38,954 nt of DNA, from contig JAIXXV010000039.1 of NCBI GenBank assembly GCA_027490575.1, positions 1 through 38,954 on the forward strand, in the 5' to 3' direction. The notes beneath the pieces were generated by a model. That model ran no database searches. It was given only the letters and a program-made list of their open reading frames with translations, and was not told where the DNA came from. A program made the translations under genes and the position numbers. Shown piece after piece: positions 21,013 to 36,284 of the stretch. The DNA comes from a bacterium (GTDB lineage Bacteria; Patescibacteriota; Minisyncoccia; Phycocordibacterales; CAIZLB01). Position 1 is the stretch's first letter; each line of letters opens with the position of its first letter.

Positions 21013-21084
21013 TGACCCTACGGAGAATCGAACTCCGATTACAGCCTTGAGAAGGCTATGTCCTAACCGTTAGACGATAGGGCC
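21013..21084 (-). tRNA. tRNA-Glu (anticodon CTC)
   Basis: The 72-nt gene folds into a full cloverleaf on the minus strand. It has acceptor GGCCCTA/TAGGGTC, anticodon stem TAGCC/GGCTG with loop TTCTCAA (anticodon CTC), T arm CGGAG/CTCCG with loop TTCGATT, and discriminator A. CCA is not encoded. It reads glutamate GAG codons. A broken second copy of its 5' half lies upstream. Confidence 0.93.
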
Positions 21085-21115
21085 AATATTTTGTTTTTCA
21101 ATCCACGCCCACCTT

Positions 21116-21176
21116 CCTTGAGAAGGCTATGTCCGCTACCTTATTCAGGGTTAGACGATAGGGCTAATATTTTGTT
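21116..21176 (-). pseudogene. Truncated tRNA-Glu duplicate
   Basis: This segment repeats the 5' half of tRNA-Glu, from the acceptor strand through the anticodon stem-loop plus the upstream AACAAAATATT. It carries about 10 extra bases in the D loop and lacks the T arm and 3' acceptor strand. It cannot make a functional tRNA. Confidence 0.8.
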
Positions 21177-21236: not shown

Positions 21237-21264
21237 GACCTGTACCACTTTCGTGGCACAGGTC
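21237..21264 (-). terminator. Terminator of orphan gene 21291-21683
   Basis: A 12-bp stem (GACCTGTRCCAC type, one mismatch) with a 4-nt loop is followed on the minus strand by TTTATCTTTTC. Confidence 0.85.
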
Positions 21265-21290: not shown

Positions 21291-21683
21291 TCAAGACCCA
21301 GGCATCAATGCTTTAACATAGTCTCTCGTCGGTTGCAACTTATGCTGCATCAAGCTGATGAATTCATTTGGCAGATTGGCATTGTCCCCGGACTGGTGAG
21401 CTTCCACCAAGACAGTGATGAGGGTGTTAATATCACCGAGTTCATCTTCAAGCCAGACAGCTCCTCTAAGCAGAGAGATTACAGCTGAGACCACCATGTT
21501 CTTTTGGTCAAAACGAAGTCGTCTCCACAGACGGAGGGTTTCTTCTCCTGAAACGAAAGAAAGAGTTGTAACCTCCAAATCCCTTCGCTCAAGTTCTGAT
21601 ACCACTTCATCAACCTCAGACTCGTCGATAGGTCGAGAGTGTAGTTGAATTCCTGACGGCAAAGTAATACTAACTATTCTCAT
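21291..21683 (-). CDS. Orphan 130-residue protein, unknown
   Basis: This protein matches no family I know. It is soluble, without signal or membrane segments, acidic near residues 20-35, with probable helices at 20-35, 48-75 and 80-98 (VVSAVISLLRGAVWLEDELG). It is one of four orphan genes of almost identical length (128-132 residues) inserted between housekeeping operons, each with its own promoter and terminator. By eye it is richer in G+C than its neighbours. Its 5' leader shares a conserved folded element with that of gene 35711-36100. No clear Shine-Dalgarno site is close to the ATG, although AAGGTGAG lies about 28 nt upstream. Confidence 0.75.
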   Translation of the reverse strand: MRIVSITLPSGIQLHSRPIDESEVDEVVSELERRDLEVTTLSFVSGEETLRLWRRLRFDQKNMVVSAVISLLRGAVWLEDELGDINTLITVLVEAHQSGDNANLPNEFISLMQHKLQPTRDYVKALMPGS

Positions 21684-21703
21684 TTGATTTACACTTTGGT
21701 GAT

Positions 21704-21762
21704 ACGTTCAACTCACCTTGCTCCCTTTCAGAGCCGTTGAATGTTTATTGTTGAAAGAACGT
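21704..21762 (-). promoter_or_regulatory. Conserved 5' leader RNA element, copy 1
   Basis: On the minus strand the leader begins with ACGTTC (21757-21762), which pairs with GAACGT (21704-21709). Inside is the hairpin GCTC-TGAAAGG-GAGC (21720-21734). The sequence CACGTTCTTT..TAAACATTCAAC.GGCT.TGAAAGG.AGC is shared with copy 2 at 36121-36178. Confidence 0.55.
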
Positions 21763-21768
21763 GACATA

Positions 21769-21796
21769 TTTATATTACACATTTTCAAAAGTACAA
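21769..21796 (-). promoter_or_regulatory. Promoter of orphan gene 21291-21683
   Basis: On the minus strand: TTGTAC (21791-21796), a 16-nt spacer, TATAAA (21769-21774). The predicted start near 21762 coincides with the first base of the conserved leader. Confidence 0.55.
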
Positions 21797-21847: not shown

Positions 21848-21903
21848 CAAACTGCTCCCTGCTATCTGATATCTGTTAACTGCTAACTGCTATCTGTTAC
21901 CTA
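21848..21903 (-). repeat. Heptamer array after ftsI
   Basis: Eight units in phase on the minus strand run TAGGTAA, CAGATAG, CAGTTAG, CAGTTAA, CAGATAT, CAGATAG, CAGGGAG and CAGTTTG. The ftsI stop is bases 5-7 of the first. A G-rich stretch and AATTAAGAATTAATAATT follow. Confidence 0.88.
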
Positions 21904-24130: not shown

Positions 24131-24208
24131 ACATTCTTAATTCTTAATTCTGCCCCATGCCTCTCCCTGCCTCTTAACTGATAACTGTTACTTGATACCT
24201 GTTATCTG
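24131..24208 (-). repeat. Composite heptamer array at the rsmH 3' end
   Basis: On the minus strand CAGATAA, CAGGTAT, CAAGTAA, CAGTTAT and CAGTTAA (24174-24208) are followed by a G-rich stretch (24150-24173) and tandem GAATTAA units (24131-24149). The first three units encode the last residues of RsmH and its stop. Confidence 0.88.
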
Positions 24209-25216
24209 TTTCTGAGCTATCCGAAGTTTCGAGCTTCTTGATCTTGGATTTATCTTTACTTCATCTGCCTCTGGCACTAGTGGTCGTTTGGTGAGTATCT
24301 GAAGCAATCCTTGATCTGAAGACTCCTTAAAAAAATTCTTAACGATACGATCCTCTAAACTATGGAATGATATGACTGCAATCCTTCCACCTTCCTTCAG
24401 AAGTTCTACAGCTTGTGGTAACGCGTCTTTGATGGATTGAAGTTCATCATTAACTGTTATCCGCAAGGCTTGGAAAGTCTTTGTGGCGGGATGCGTCTTG
24501 CCATGTCTCGCACCTGATGGATAAGCAAACTTGATGATTTCAGCAAGCTTTGCAGTAGTTTTGATCGGCTCCTTAGCCCTTTCCTCAACTATCTTCTTTG
24601 CGATACGTCGAGAAAACTTGTCTTCGCCATAAGCAAATATGATGTCAGCAATGCTTTCCTCTTCCCATGTATTGACTATGTCAGATGCATTGAAAGAGTA
24701 AGTATCGCTTTGACCGAAAGTCATCAGTAGCGGTTCGTCTTTTTTAAAAGCAAAACCTCTGCCAGACTCTTCGATCTCATAAGAACTTATACCGAGATCA
24801 AACATGATTGCATCAGCCTTAAAATCAGCTGGCAACTCACCTTTAGTTTGAAGATCGTCTATGTTTTTTTGAAGGTTTCTAAAGTTATCTTGGATAAATG
24901 TGAGTGTTGGACTTTCGAAACTTGGATCATTTGCCTTTTGAGTTTTGACCATTGCTTCAATGTTTACCTTTGCTCTCTCGATAGCTTCTGGATCAAGGTC
25001 AACTCCAATGAGATGAACATTTCCAGACAACTCTTTGATAATAGCTTCACTGTGTCCCCCATCACCTAGATTACAATCTATGACGATGGGTTTAGTACTT
25101 TTGCTTGCGCCGGCAACTTTAGCAGCGCCGGATACAAGCGTCGCTGAGCCATTTTTTATCTCAGATAAATTTAGACCTTCTATGATTTGTTGTAAAAGAA
25201 CAGGTATGTGTCGCAT
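24188..25216 (-). CDS. rsmH: 16S rRNA m4C1402 methyltransferase RsmH
   Basis: It methylates N4 of C1402 in 16S rRNA using SAM. Motifs include the SAM site DCNLGDGGHSEAI (about 47-60), DLGISSYEIEESGRGFAF, and the C-terminal RIAVISFHSLEDRIVKNFF. Residues about 22-42 are an Ala/Ser/Gly/Lys insertion (NGSATLVSGAAKVAGASKS) before the SAM motif, not present in typical RsmH. The last residues (KQITGIK) are encoded by the heptamer array. The gene starts 4 nt after mraZ, so they are co-translated. Length is 342 residues. Confidence 0.95.
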   Translation of the reverse strand: MRHIPVLLQQIIEGLNLSEIKNGSATLVSGAAKVAGASKSTKPIVIDCNLGDGGHSEAIIKELSGNVHLIGVDLDPEAIERAKVNIEAMVKTQKANDPSFESPTLTFIQDNFRNLQKNIDDLQTKGELPADFKADAIMFDLGISSYEIEESGRGFAFKKDEPLLMTFGQSDTYSFNASDIVNTWEEESIADIIFAYGEDKFSRRIAKKIVEERAKEPIKTTAKLAEIIKFAYPSGARHGKTHPATKTFQALRITVNDELQSIKDALPQAVELLKEGGRIAVISFHSLEDRIVKNFFKESSDQGLLQILTKRPLVPEADEVKINPRSRSSKLRIAQKQITGIK

Positions 25217-26052: not shown

Positions 26053-26085
26053 AAAAAAGCGCCGTACCTTTGCAGGTAAAGCGCT
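26053..26085 (-). terminator. Terminator of orphan gene 26124-26522
   Basis: GCGC outer and TACCT/AGGTA inner pairs form a hairpin followed on the minus strand by TTTTTTAT. It is nearly identical in sequence to the terminator at 26674-26709. Confidence 0.8.
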
Positions 26086-26123
26086 AACTGTTCGTTGACG
26101 AACATATAGATTGCGATGTGTGG

Positions 26124-26522
26124 TCAGATGATGATCTTGACCAGTATTCCCAGCTTGTTTCCGAGGTCGATGAAAGCGAATGTAGAGCCGAAAGGCGGTG
26201 TGACATATGGAACTTCTGATTGACGGCAGATGAGTCGGCCGTATTTCTCGAAAAACCATTTGGCAAACCCCTCTGGACCACTAGCAAAATCAGAGTTTCG
26301 TCTCCACATTTCAACGATGATGTCTTCGTTTTCACCCAACCCTACAGAGTATCTGCCTGGAGTCTGCTCCTCTTGTCTTAGAACAAGTGCAAGCCAAGCA
26401 GAGAGTTCATACTCTAGCTTGATAATGAAGTTAAACTTGCCCGGGTCGTAATTACCAACTTCACCTGCCTTGATAGACAGAATCCTTTTTTCAAAGCTTG
26501 CTAATCCATGTAATACTAACAT
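26124..26522 (-). CDS. Orphan 132-residue protein, unknown
   Basis: ATG 26522 is preferred over the longer frame from 26552 because AGAAGGAGG, a full Shine-Dalgarno site, ends 4-5 nt before it. The soluble product is rich in aromatic residues (ELSAWLALVL, EGFAKWFFEKYG) and ends in a hydrophobic strand (KLGILVKIII). No family is recognised. It is one of the four similar-length orphan cassettes and directly neighbours another (26740-27126), with almost the same terminator. Confidence 0.72.
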   Translation of the reverse strand: MLVLHGLASFEKRILSIKAGEVGNYDPGKFNFIIKLEYELSAWLALVLRQEEQTPGRYSVGLGENEDIIVEMWRRNSDFASGPEGFAKWFFEKYGRLICRQSEVPYVTPPFGSTFAFIDLGNKLGILVKIII

Positions 26523-26584
26523 ATTGCCTCCTTCTGTTAAATTTAAGAACATATCGAGGTTCTTTTTAGATCCACGATATTTAG

Positions 26585-26613
26585 ATAGTACAACATAAAT
26601 ATAAAATTGTAAA
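26585..26613 (-). promoter_or_regulatory. Promoter of orphan gene 26124-26522
   Basis: On the minus strand: TTTACA (26608-26613), 17-nt spacer, TACTAT (26585-26590). The roughly 57-nt leader contains the hairpin AAGAAC/GTTCTT and a strong Shine-Dalgarno site. Confidence 0.6.
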
Positions 26614-26673
26614 TAGTTTAAGGTGTAAGCTTTATTTAAATCAATGACTAGCCTATGTGCCTATTTTTGTTAT

Positions 26674-26709
26674 AAAAAAGCGCTGTACCCTTGCAGGTAA
26701 AGCGCTTTT
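26674..26709 (-). terminator. Terminator of orphan gene 26740-27126
   Basis: AAAAGCGCT/AGCGCTTTT flank a GTACC..GGTA core; T-runs occur on both strands. Its core differs by only two bases from that of 26053-26085. Confidence 0.85.
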
Positions 26710-26739
26710 GAACCACCTAAGGTCGGTAGTTCATACTCA

Positions 26740-27126
26740 CTAATTGGCTTTGAACAAGATAGCCTTACCATCTCTGATTAGCATAGCCTTGAACTCACAA
26801 ACTTTTTCAGAGTTAGGCCTTGATTTGGATACGACAGACTGACCGACAGCTCTCCAGAGAAGATTCACAAGCGTTTTCACATCTGTTACCTGCTGAGCAC
26901 TTCCTTCTTTTGCCCATGATACAACTACCTCAGAAGTTATCTTGCGCTCTACTTTTTCTCTCCACAAAGGAAGGTTTATCATAGTTGTGACCGCACTTTC
27001 CAAAGATTCTTTGCCTATGAACATGACGATATCGTTCATCTTCATATCTGCTGATTGATCACTTAACGACACCACACGTATCTTGATGATACCGTTATTT
27101 TTTATCGAAACTATTCCTGTATTCAA
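26740..27126 (-). CDS. Orphan 128-residue protein, unknown
   Basis: The start codon is TTG 27126, chosen because AAGGAGG lies 8 nt before it. The protein is soluble with mixed strands at the ends (GIVSIKNNGIIKIRVVSL; CEFKAMLIRDGKAILFKAN) and a helical middle with WREKVERKITSEVVVSW. No known family; no similarity to the other orphan proteins is visible apart from length and cassette organisation. Confidence 0.72.
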   Translation of the reverse strand: MNTGIVSIKNNGIIKIRVVSLSDQSADMKMNDIVMFIGKESLESAVTTMINLPLWREKVERKITSEVVVSWAKEGSAQQVTDVKTLVNLLWRAVGQSVVSKSRPNSEKVCEFKAMLIRDGKAILFKAN

Positions 27127-27195
27127 GACGTTATCCTCCTTATGTTGAATTTTTGTTTAGAACTATGCCCGACCCTTCATGGACCAGACACAGCA

Positions 27196-27223
27196 ATATT
27201 ACACTTCAGACAGTTTGCGTCAA
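27196..27223 (-). promoter_or_regulatory. Promoter of orphan gene 26740-27126
   Basis: On the minus strand: TTGACG (27218-27223), 16-nt spacer, TAATAT (27196-27201). The -35 box begins inside the last heptamer after lysS. The leader then has a 9-bp GU-rich hairpin (GTCTGGTCC/GGGTCGGGC). Confidence 0.6.
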
Positions 27224-30227: not shown

Positions 30228-30347
30228 AAGTTTGTATTTTGTATTTAGATGCTCCGAGATATGCTTAAGTATGCTTAAGGCAATCGGACGCTGTTAAATG
30301 TTAATGGGTGTATTATAGCATGTATGGACAATTAGTAATTATGACTA

Positions 30348-30403
30348 CTACCTGCTACCTGTTACCTGCTACCTGTTACCTGCTATCTGTTAATTGCTAA
30401 TTG
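30348..30403 (-). repeat. Heptamer array after mrdA, 8 units
   Basis: CAATTAG, CAATTAA, CAGATAG, CAGGTAA, CAGGTAG, CAGGTAA, CAGGTAG and CAGGTAG in perfect phase on the minus strand. The mrdA stop is bases 5-7 of the first unit, and its last Asn codon is also in the repeat. This is the most regular array of the window. Confidence 0.95.
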
Positions 30404-32175
30404 TTCTCAAGGTATTCCGGCGCATACAAAGACATCCAATCAAGCCACAACCTCACAGCAGGTGTAGCACCGACAGTAGCGGTATATGGGGCCTTTTCAA
30501 GCAAGACCGCAAATGCATATTTTGGCTTGTCATATGGAAAATATCCTACTGACCAAGAGTTTATAAACTGATTTCTCACTCCGAGTTGTGCAGTACCTGA
30601 CTTACCTGCAACCTTAACATATGGAACATTTATAGATTGCATAGTTCCCTCAGTAACAGCCATGCGCATTCCTTCTCTCACTACGTCATACCACCTATTG
30701 ACCATATCAGGTGTATTTGGTGCGTTGGGCTCTGGTGATACTTTACCTACGCCTTCTATCTTTCTAGTATAGGCCTTACTAGAGTCGTATATGCCTTTGG
30801 CACGCAACTCATTTTCAGTTTCTAGTGAAAGCATGGTCGGTGTGTGCAAAGTGCCTCCATTTGCAATAGCAGCTGTATATCTAACTGCTTGTATGGGAGT
30901 GATCTGAAATCCATATTGACCTATCACTGTGTTATACGTATCACCCACCCTCCATATATCTCCTTTAAACACTTCTCTCTTCCATTCAGGTGTAGGTATC
31001 ACACCTTTCTTTCCTCCGAAAAAAGTACCCTCCAGTGTCTCGTCCAATCCAAACATTTTAGAATATGTATCAATACGATTTATACCCAAACCTTTTTGAT
31101 TCATGAATCCACCTCCTATCTGGTAAAAATACACATCGGAAGATACTGCAATAGCCTCTCTTGCATCAGTAAATCCATGCGCTTTCCAGTCTTTGAAGAT
31201 AGAAAACTCACCAGGTCTAAATGGGTTCGGTAGTCTCATCTCTCCTGTACTCTCTATCTGCTTATCAGGCGATATTATACCTTCTGAAAGTGCTGCGAGT
31301 GTGAAGAGGGGTTTCAAAATAGATCCTGGAGTATATAGACCTTTTGAAACTCTATCCAAAAACGGTGTGTTAGGGTCATTTAAATACGACTGTATTTTTT
31401 CAACATCTTTTCCATCTGTCATGACATTTGAATCGTACTCTGGATATGTCACACTAGCTAAAACTTCACCAGTATATATATCCATCACAACACCTGCACC
31501 GCCCTGAAAACCTGACCTGCGCGCAATTTCTTCTATAGAGCTATAGAGTGATTTTTGAATTTTTTCATGTATGGATAATTTTATATTTTCTCCCTTTATG
31601 GCAGGCCTCAGTACACTTTGAGATATTATATTTCCAAGAGCATCAGTCTCTGCAATCTTCAAACCGTTTTGTCCGGTAAGCAAAGTATCGAAGTATCTCT
31701 CTACCCCATCTGCACCTTCGTATTTTGTATCATAATAAAAACCAAATCTATCTTTTTTTGGATATCTAACATAACCGACCAAACTATGAAGTCCTTTCTG
31801 ATCAGAATATTTTCTTAGTGAAAATTCTGGCTCTGATTCATCACTTACATTCCATGCCAAAATATTACCTTCTCTATCTGTGATAGCTCCTCTCTCAGCA
31901 AAAACTAAACTCTGTCTTAGTCTATTGTTTTCGGATATATGCTTAAATTTTTCGCCTTCGGCAATCTGAAGTGAGCCTATACGATATATAAATGATACTG
32001 GTATCAATACAAATATGATGCCAAGTATAACAATGGTCCTTCTTGAAATAGCGCGTTCAATCTGTCCCTCGAACTGGTCTTTGTCGAATTGTGGAATATT
32101 TGAAGAATCTAAAAAAATCTCGTCTGGATCTATCTCTTTCGATTTTCTTATAGTTTTAGATCTTCTGAATATCAT
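30397..32175 (-). CDS. mrdA: Penicillin-binding protein 2 (MrdA)
   Basis: This is the elongasome transpeptidase. It has a cytoplasmic N-terminus with many charges, a transmembrane helix (about 46-66), a pedestal domain, and a catalytic domain with S285-x-x-K288 (YTPGSILKP), SSD in the second motif and KSGTAQ. The 592-residue length is normal. It is the last gene of the proS-mreBCD-mrdA run and overlaps mreD by 4 nt (ATGA). A rodA gene does not follow, so the partner polymerase must be encoded elsewhere. Confidence 0.95.
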   Translation of the reverse strand: MIFRRSKTIRKSKEIDPDEIFLDSSNIPQFDKDQFEGQIERAISRRTIVILGIIFVLIPVSFIYRIGSLQIAEGEKFKHISENNRLRQSLVFAERGAITDREGNILAWNVSDESEPEFSLRKYSDQKGLHSLVGYVRYPKKDRFGFYYDTKYEGADGVERYFDTLLTGQNGLKIAETDALGNIISQSVLRPAIKGENIKLSIHEKIQKSLYSSIEEIARRSGFQGGAGVVMDIYTGEVLASVTYPEYDSNVMTDGKDVEKIQSYLNDPNTPFLDRVSKGLYTPGSILKPLFTLAALSEGIISPDKQIESTGEMRLPNPFRPGEFSIFKDWKAHGFTDAREAIAVSSDVYFYQIGGGFMNQKGLGINRIDTYSKMFGLDETLEGTFFGGKKGVIPTPEWKREVFKGDIWRVGDTYNTVIGQYGFQITPIQAVRYTAAIANGGTLHTPTMLSLETENELRAKGIYDSSKAYTRKIEGVGKVSPEPNAPNTPDMVNRWYDVVREGMRMAVTEGTMQSINVPYVKVAGKSGTAQLGVRNQFINSWSVGYFPYDKPKYAFAVLLEKAPYTATVGATPAVRLWLDWMSLYAPEYLENN

Positions 32176-35560: not shown

Positions 35561-35639
35561 TGTGGTGGGTTGGTTTGGTTTTATATGATTTACACTAAGG
35601 AAAATAAGTGCATGGTTGCACGGCGTATAAATTAAAATG

Positions 35640-35673
35640 CTGGTAGGCCTGGGAAATACCCATTACCTACCAG
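35640..35673 (-). terminator. Terminator of orphan gene 35711-36100
   Basis: CTGGTAGG and CCTACCAG enclose GGG/CCC pairs; on the minus strand the sequence continues CATTTTAATTT. Confidence 0.75.
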
Positions 35674-35710
35674 CAGTTATAAATGCTTTTTCGCACTCAA
35701 ACCAAGGTTG

Positions 35711-36100
35711 TCAATATTTCTTGACAGGTTTGAATTTCACAGCTCGCAACTCCTGTCCACGACAGTAGATTGTCCAGATACCGAATTCTTGTTTACCGTA
35801 AGGGACATTCCTGTCGTAAGGTCGTTCCATCTCCTCACTTTCTGGCAAAGCATACAAGAGGTGGATTAATGTCTCAGTCTCCCTCTCATTTTCAGAAAAG
35901 TGCTGCATCATAGGCTTTTCTTGACGTAAAGCTAAGCAGTCAGCAAGAACTCTGAAACATTCTCTAGGGTCGCGCTTTAAAAACTCCTTTCCTGCATCTG
36001 ATCTTTGGTAGGAAATCCACACAGAGTGTGCATCATACACAACTTCTTTGAGCAGCTCAGCAAGGAGTTGCTCGGGGTTCATACTTTCGTATTCTTTCAT
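35711..36100 (-). CDS. Orphan 129-residue protein, unknown
   Basis: ATG 36100 (MKEYESMNPEQ) is chosen because AAAGGATAAGACA puts a Shine-Dalgarno site before it; the frame extends to 36148 without reason. The product is soluble, acidic and helical in the first 90 residues (EQLLAELLKEVVYDAHSVWISY, CFRVLADCLALRQ), with a beta-rich, basic end (GIWTIYCRGQELRAVKFKPV). No family is recognised. It shares a conserved 5' leader with gene 21291-21683, the strongest sign that the orphan cassettes form a functional class. Confidence 0.75.
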   Translation of the reverse strand: MKEYESMNPEQLLAELLKEVVYDAHSVWISYQRSDAGKEFLKRDPRECFRVLADCLALRQEKPMMQHFSENERETETLIHLLYALPESEEMERPYDRNVPYGKQEFGIWTIYCRGQELRAVKFKPVKKY

Positions 36101-36120
36101 TGTCTTATCCTTTTGTGCAT

Positions 36121-36178
36121 CGTTCTGAGCACAGTGGCTTCCTTTCAAAGCCGGTTGAATGTTTAACTAAAAGAACGT
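36121..36178 (-). promoter_or_regulatory. Conserved 5' leader RNA element, copy 2
   Basis: On the minus strand CGTTCT (36172-36177) pairs with AGAACG (36121-36126), enclosing GGCTT-TGAAAGG-AAGCC (36136-36152). Compared with copy 1, the loop TGAAAGG is identical while one stem pair changes from C-G to T-A. Confidence 0.55.
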
Positions 36179-36184
36179 GATGTA

Positions 36185-36213
36185 TTAATACCACGTTGCT
36201 TTTAGCTGGTCAA
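36185..36213 (-). promoter_or_regulatory. Promoter of orphan gene 35711-36100
   Basis: On the minus strand: TTGACC (36208-36213), 17-nt spacer, TATTAA (36185-36190). The start should fall near 36178, exactly at the conserved leader. Confidence 0.6.
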
Positions 36214-36242
36214 TATGGAAGCTGAAAGTAAAATTTCAACTA

Positions 36243-36284
36243 CTAATTACTAATTACTAACTGTTAATTGTTATCTGTTAATTC
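36243..36284 (-). repeat. Heptamer array after rseP, 6 units
   Basis: GAATTAA, CAGATAA, CAATTAA, CAGTTAG, TAATTAG and TAATTAG on the minus strand. The rseP stop is bases 5-7 of the first unit. Confidence 0.92.

Follow-up and report, generated by a model that had tools for sequence, protein, structure and literature searches.

Four small orphan genes in the window, that is, the whole 38,954-nt stretch of DNA analyzed (contig C5 of a 772-kb genome in 42 contigs), are best explained as long-resident, stand-alone accessory genes of a kind scattered over this and other Patescibacteria genomes, with a leader that would control or boost their translation. We give this reading a probability somewhat above one half (about 0.55). 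Each of the four looks like a one-gene transcription unit, called a cassette below. Since a common control sequence stands before unrelated genes, at least two of them, c21 and c35, and more loosely all four, may be switched on and off together. The proposed unit would comprise a promoter, a leader of about 40-100 nt, one small open frame and a strong intrinsic terminator; the leader would carry a conserved (A)ACATTCAAC box close upstream of a purine-rich ribosome-binding site, often with a GTTC box before it. The transcript start, the expression and co-regulation of these genes and the function of their proteins are discussed as we infer them from the sequence.

Four orphan genes between housekeeping operons

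The genes c21 (21291-21683, 130 codons), c26a (26124-26522, 132 codons), c26b (26740-27126, 128 codons from a TTG start) and c35 (35711-36100, 129 codons) are open reading frames on the minus strand, with a coding signal that is positive in frame and negative in the five other frames of each. The lengths of 132 and 129 codons assume that c26a starts at 26522 and c35 at 36100, i.e., at their Shine-Dalgarno (SD) sites; the ORF finder puts the two starts further upstream, at 26552 and 36148, respectively. An earlier note on this DNA had placed four orphan genes of these lengths at these positions, between housekeeping operons, and both the frames and their surroundings bear this out. Judging from the translations, we take c21 to be flanked by ftsI and a tRNA gene, c26b and c26a to sit between lysS and mraZ, and c35 between rseP and proS. 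At the tRNA gene (21013-21084), a 27-nt near-exact repeat (96%; 21069-21095 and 21150-21176) resembles a partial second copy of the tRNA start. Arrays of an approximately 7-nt repeat of the TAACAG/TAGCAG type lie at 21851-21899, 24149-24211, about 25985, about 27223, 30330-30406 and 36232-36280; several begin at the stop codon of a housekeeping gene, and two of the places were seen by eye.

The four proteins have no recognizable families, as the earlier note had stated: searches of Pfam, NCBIfam, PADLOC and PHROGs gave no match at a usable score for any of them (4/4), and a sequence search of c26b against the PDB found nothing. Single-sequence AlphaFold models of c35 and c26a were discarded (mean pLDDT 44.0 and 41.7, respectively). 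The 14 other family genomes contain no homolog of any of the four. This says little, since identity is as low as 36-51% for LysS itself in the 12 other family genomes with an alignment of at least 250 residues.

The genes are richer in G+C, as had been proposed, with GC3 values of 0.44 (c21), 0.46 (c26a), 0.42 (c26b) and 0.45 (c35) against 0.24-0.42 in 21 neighbors. Codon usage was also compared with 21 neighbors; synonymous choice is near neutral in the four orphans (-0.020 to 0.046 bits per codon) and reaches at least 0.05 bits per codon in 18 of the 21 neighbors.

Terminators, Shine-Dalgarno sites and promoters

Folding energies place a terminator on the minus strand behind each gene, at 21237-21264 for c21 (-22.1 kcal/mol), 26053-26085 for c26a (-15.8 kcal/mol), 26674-26706 for c26b (-16.1 kcal/mol) and 35638-35675 for c35 (-25.9 kcal/mol). 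Terminators of -15 kcal/mol or stronger follow all four cassettes and two of the 30 other listed genes (bL9, -16.4 kcal/mol; yqeY, -19.5 kcal/mol). Those of c26a and c26b have a sequence in common (91% identity over 44 nt, E 5e-13); a search of the own genome that allowed up to three mismatches gave no other copy. Between the c26a stop codon and the c26a terminator, a perfect inverted repeat, TGTTCGT-CA-ACGAACA (26089-26104), was seen by eye.

Strong SD sites precede three of the genes, AAGGAGG in c26a and c26b and AAAGGA in c35, which agrees with the previous description of three such sites unlike those of the neighbors: 28 of the 30 other listed genes have 0-4 matching bases, dnaB has 5 and recR, the start of which is not well placed, has 6. 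The start of c21 adjoins a weak AAAG, and GAAAGGGAG is found about 40 nt upstream of it.

The promoter, hairpin leader and terminator that had been attributed to each gene fared differently. The terminators stand (-15.8 to -25.9 kcal/mol), while the sigma-70 promoters do not stand out, with 53 promoter-like sites in the window against 46.6 ± 7.4 in shuffles and some of them before every gene. Leader folding, also compared with shuffles, is distinct for c26b (z -2.8) and c35 (z -2.1) and not distinct for c21 (z -1.1) and c26a (z -0.9).

A leader common to c21 and c35, with two predicted hairpins

The leaders of c21 (21684-21775) and c35 (36101-36191), both on the minus strand, contain a GTTC box (21757-21760 and 36173-36176, respectively), an ACATTCAAC box (21736-21744 and 36154-36162), a hairpin H1 (21720-21734 and 36136-36151) and a hairpin H2 (21698-21717 and 36114-36133). 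A search of the window aligns 56 nt of the two at 80% identity (21774-21720 against 36190-36137, E 4e-8), and the alignment can be extended to about 100 nt, from a -10-like element down to the start codon; a sequence comparison of the two genes found no similarity in their coding DNA or in their proteins.

H1 and H2 lie at matching places in the folds of both leaders, and 10 of their 10 base pairs are kept in c21 and c35. Seven pairs are invariant and the three variable ones are all changed on both sides (C-G/U-A, G-C/U-A and A-U/C-G), with zero one-sided changes, against 36.8-65.0% of cells paired and zero double changes in six slid controls. A shuffle control, in which 58 of 500 scored as high, is not decisive because only two sequences exist. 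When twelve substitutions were placed at random in the 40 columns concerned, all ten pairs survived in 0.2% of 20,000 trials, a figure that is optimistic because the structure was picked from folds of these same sequences. H1 contains a ribosome-site-like GAAAGGRAG, and the CGUUC box, conserved in both leaders, can pair by eye with the GAACG loop of H2 through five invariant pairs; in a 98-nt piece of c21, the optimal fold drops H2 and takes a pairing of the CGUUC-GAACG type instead. We think it likely that this elaborate form is regulated by RNA structure: H1 would hold the GAAAGGRAG, and the pairing of the CGUUC box with the H2 loop would make the leader a regulated RNA. Small leader peptides were also considered for c21 and c35 and dropped, since by eye they are not conserved between the two.

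A broader proposal appears doubtful to us: that a new cis-regulatory RNA of Patescibacteria, with the ACAUUCAAC box next to the ribosome site and, in the elaborate form, a GUUC-GAAC pairing, puts a scattered and changing set of unrelated orphans under one translational control and serves as a ready-made leader for new genes to take up. A model of the c21/c35 structure, R3, found no further member in the 70 sequence sources searched, window included. With Rfam 15, a single tRNA reached the gathering score in the whole window, and at a permissive threshold the c21 and c35 leaders gave chance matches only.

The conserved stretch could also act as DNA, as an operator or promoter bound by one transcription factor, the four genes then belonging to a transcriptional regulon. 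The similarity of c21 and c35 starts at the -10-like element, where c35 carries a palindrome, AACGTGGTATTAATACATCACGTT (36174-36197), which may be an operator or form a 5′-terminal hairpin of the transcript; both features would suit a DNA element. The changes in H1 and H2, however, keep base pairs, and the ACATTCAAC box stays, by eye, beside the ribosome site and not at a fixed distance from the promoter, so that we regard a DNA-level element as rather unlikely.

A looser box before c26b and c26a

A loose ACATTCAAC box close upstream of a purine-rich ribosome site also stands before c26b and, weakly, before c26a. The c26b leader (27127-27200, minus strand), which reads GTTCTAAACAAAAATTCAACATAAGGAGG, has a 5′ hairpin, a GTTC box (27160-27163), a AAATTCAAC box (27144-27152) and the SD site AAGGAGG. 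That of c26a (26523-26590, minus strand), which reads GTTCTTAAATTTAACAGAAGGAGG, has a GTTC box (26547-26550), the poorer box AAATTTAAC (26536-26544) and the SD site AAGGAGG, and is weak with the model R2 described below. In this simple form, the leader would serve as a translation enhancer just upstream of the SD site. A single RNA structure for the whole class was rejected: 16 leaders have no structure in common (z -2.3 to +2.2) and most of them are little structured.

Two leader models were used, R1 from ten leaders, including the four of the window, and R2 from nine leaders, all from other genomes; the independence of R2 is only partial because its nine leaders came from patterns or a model drawn from the window. 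Among the 34 hits of R2 on the window, c26b ranked first (E 0.0036), c21 second (E 0.04), c35 third (E 0.054) and c26a eleventh, and on eight other stretches of the own genome, three further own leaders took ranks one to three of 19 hits.

Counts from plain patterns are weak on their own. The pattern GTTCN{6,24}ATTCAACN{0,10}AAGGAG occurs at 13 places in 397 genomes against 10 for the reversed control, and ATTCAACN{0,14}RGGRG 72 times over 15 genomes against 48 in the control; in the own genome, the latter gave 11 rows against 2 in the reversed control, five of them representing four leaders and six not being leaders (C8, C19 twice, C32 and C39 twice). A scan of the window with one mismatch gave 5 matches against 0.75 in the control; with two mismatches, the 10 matches against a control mean of 6.8 were no better than control.

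These results bear on the possibility that the four are ordinary, unrelated lineage-specific genes with ordinary signals, c21 and c35 owing their leader to a single promoter-leader duplication. Counts so near to control would be expected then, as would the weakness of c26a with R2 and a structured leader in c21 and c35 only; a purine-rich SD site with an A/C-rich stretch upstream arises easily, and relatives as diverged as LysS indicates would leave small genes without detectable homologs. Against this, R2 gives the top ranks to three leaders of the window and to three others of the own genome, and most genes that follow the box stand alone as orphans with a terminator. We consider this explanation somewhat unlikely.

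Further examples in the same genome

In the own genome, R1 found the four window leaders and two more, on C12 and C18, and reading through the C12 stretch revealed a third extra leader, a divergent one. The genes concerned encode 87 and 189 aa (the divergent pair on C12) and 249 aa (C18), each followed by a terminator seen by eye. A seventh R1 row, on C19, was read as not a leader, and twelve further own-genome stretches (180.7 kb) contain no leader at E up to 5. The genome search recommended by the earlier note thus yielded at least three more genes of this layout and a total of at least seven, a lower bound because only 150 of the 745 first-look candidates were scored with R1, which did not pick up the 189-aa gene on C12. 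On C18, the same terminator ends the 249-aa cassette and the gene preceding it (L087, G000:C18), and the contig ends immediately behind the second of the two copies.

Examples in other genomes

Searches of other Patescibacteria gave eight or nine such genes, and those behind the box encode 175, 175, 256, 31, 164, 234, 160 and 333 aa, with terminators seen by eye. The pattern ACATTCAACN{2,10}GAAAGG, searched in 397 genomes of the order, occurs at seven places in six genomes, two of the places being in the own genome, against one place in the reversed control. Four of the five places outside the own genome lie directly before a start codon: L009 (genome G003, 175 aa), L011 (165 aa, signal-peptide-like), L013 (164 aa) and L014, which presumably heads a carbohydrate-kinase-like protein, as read from the translation; the fifth, L012, is by eye not a leader. 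Among the twelve non-own places of the GTTC pattern, inspection by eye showed cassettes at L018 (234 aa) and L021 (160 aa); a long secreted-looking protein follows L024, and L016 is a good leader for which a reading frame was not found; the other eight are chance-like, inside longer reading frames, or unclear.

A stricter pattern, scanned over one genome per species, gave 27 stretches, four of them from Patescibacteria (L031, L042, L043 and L045). Two of the four are cassettes, L042 (Taylorbacteria, 333 aa) and L043, which is the L021 gene again. Within the family, R1 produced 30 non-own rows, 27 of which were read; three are leaders, namely L009, L059 in genome G002, a homolog of L009 (88-90% identical), and L085 in genome G004 (256 aa). 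L074, in which ACATTCAAC stands without an SD site before a transpeptidase-like protein, was not counted. The sole leader among 15 places examined in relatives is L158 (G003:C50:23800-26300, minus strand), where a leader of this kind is followed by a 31-codon frame and a terminator.

The genes behind the box are not all orphans, as L014, L024 and the phosphoribosyltransferase-like L042 illustrate; the last was the one protein of 13 cassette proteins scanned to reach the Pfam cut-off (26.9 bits against 26.3). When 14 cassette proteins were compared mutually, only L009 and L059 were homologous. The idea of a class of regulated accessory genes, already put forward in the earlier note, gains from the whole leader common to c21 and c35 and from these layouts in the own genome and in relatives; its attributes of acquisition and of host interaction or defense, considered below, do not share in this.

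Origin of the cassette genes

The GC3 of ten cassette genes elsewhere tracks the locus, from 0.36 at 36.7% G+C to 0.76 at 54.3%, and the cassette genes therefore look long resident. As the G+C of such genes elsewhere follows the host and none of the four proteins has a viral homolog, the term "acquired" lacks support; an acquired origin may still apply because GC3 is raised in the window. Searches of c26a and c26b for phage homologs and of c26a for plasmid homologs were likewise negative. A role in host interaction or defense found no direct backing either, the best PADLOC match of the window proteins being at E 0.017 (13.5 bits), with no phage or defense neighbors recognized around the four genes. 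In viruses, the pattern AAACATTCAACN{1,8}AAAGGAGG hit 12 IMG/VR stretches, most of which are, by eye, the string inside a longer gene and none of which resembles a Patescibacteria cassette.

Mobility of the units, i.e., insertion of single genes between operons by recombination, perhaps at terminators, would account for the tandem c26a and c26b with their nearly identical terminators and for the terminator that the C18 cassette has in common with the preceding gene. It would also suit genome G011, which keeps the order of lysS, mraZ and mraW; the roughly 690 bases from lysS to mraZ contain no cassette-like gene there, and the c26a/c26b pair is therefore not a fixed part of this place. On the other hand, no common flanking sites or target duplications are found among the four units, the sole other shared repeat being the intergenic 7-nt arrays, and the G+C follows the host; we find mobile cassettes very unlikely. 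The units resemble integron gene cassettes as tandem single-gene units with similar 3′ inverted repeats (c26a and c26b). The differences are that these repeats are terminators and that a separate ribosome site and leader belong to each unit.

An origin from phages, or an anti-phage function, is in our judgment more improbable still. Small orphan one-gene units resemble phage morons, accessory genes that in at least one described case are transcribed from a promoter of their own (PMC7067206), and the raised GC3 would also fit; conversely, PADLOC and PHROGs gave no usable family, viral homologs were absent for all four, and phage neighbors were not seen. The likeness to morons consists in the stand-alone accessory gene, with clear terminators in four genes here; the differences are that no prophage is present, the neighbors being read as ftsI, mraZ, lysS, proS and rseP, and that several unrelated genes have one leader in common.

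Discussion

The reading that we prefer, stand-alone accessory genes behind a translational leader, can be set beside two known kinds of regulatory sequence. We take TTTAACAGAAGGAGG of c26a to resemble the enhancer of T7 gene 10. This enhancer, nine A/U-rich nucleotides located upstream of the SD site, increases translation (PMC8748333) and would be the best analogy for the simple leader form; the putative element here differs in having the core ACATTCAAC and in being chromosomal. With the cis-regulatory leader RNAs of Rfam, the elaborate form would have in common a structured leader before the start codon and, in H1 and H2 of c21 and c35, apparently compensatory changes, whereas no family is matched at cut-off and the genes behind are unrelated orphans. 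The portions of the literature that our search reached hold no description of this leader, and solely on this ground do we call it undescribed.

Patescibacteria have small genomes, yet many genes without assignable function. If our reading is true, the common leader would offer a handle to find and test a set of such orphans jointly, e.g., for roles in host-cell attachment. Conservation of a regulatory sequence in front of differing genes would, moreover, be unusual, and would bear on how new genes come to be expressed.
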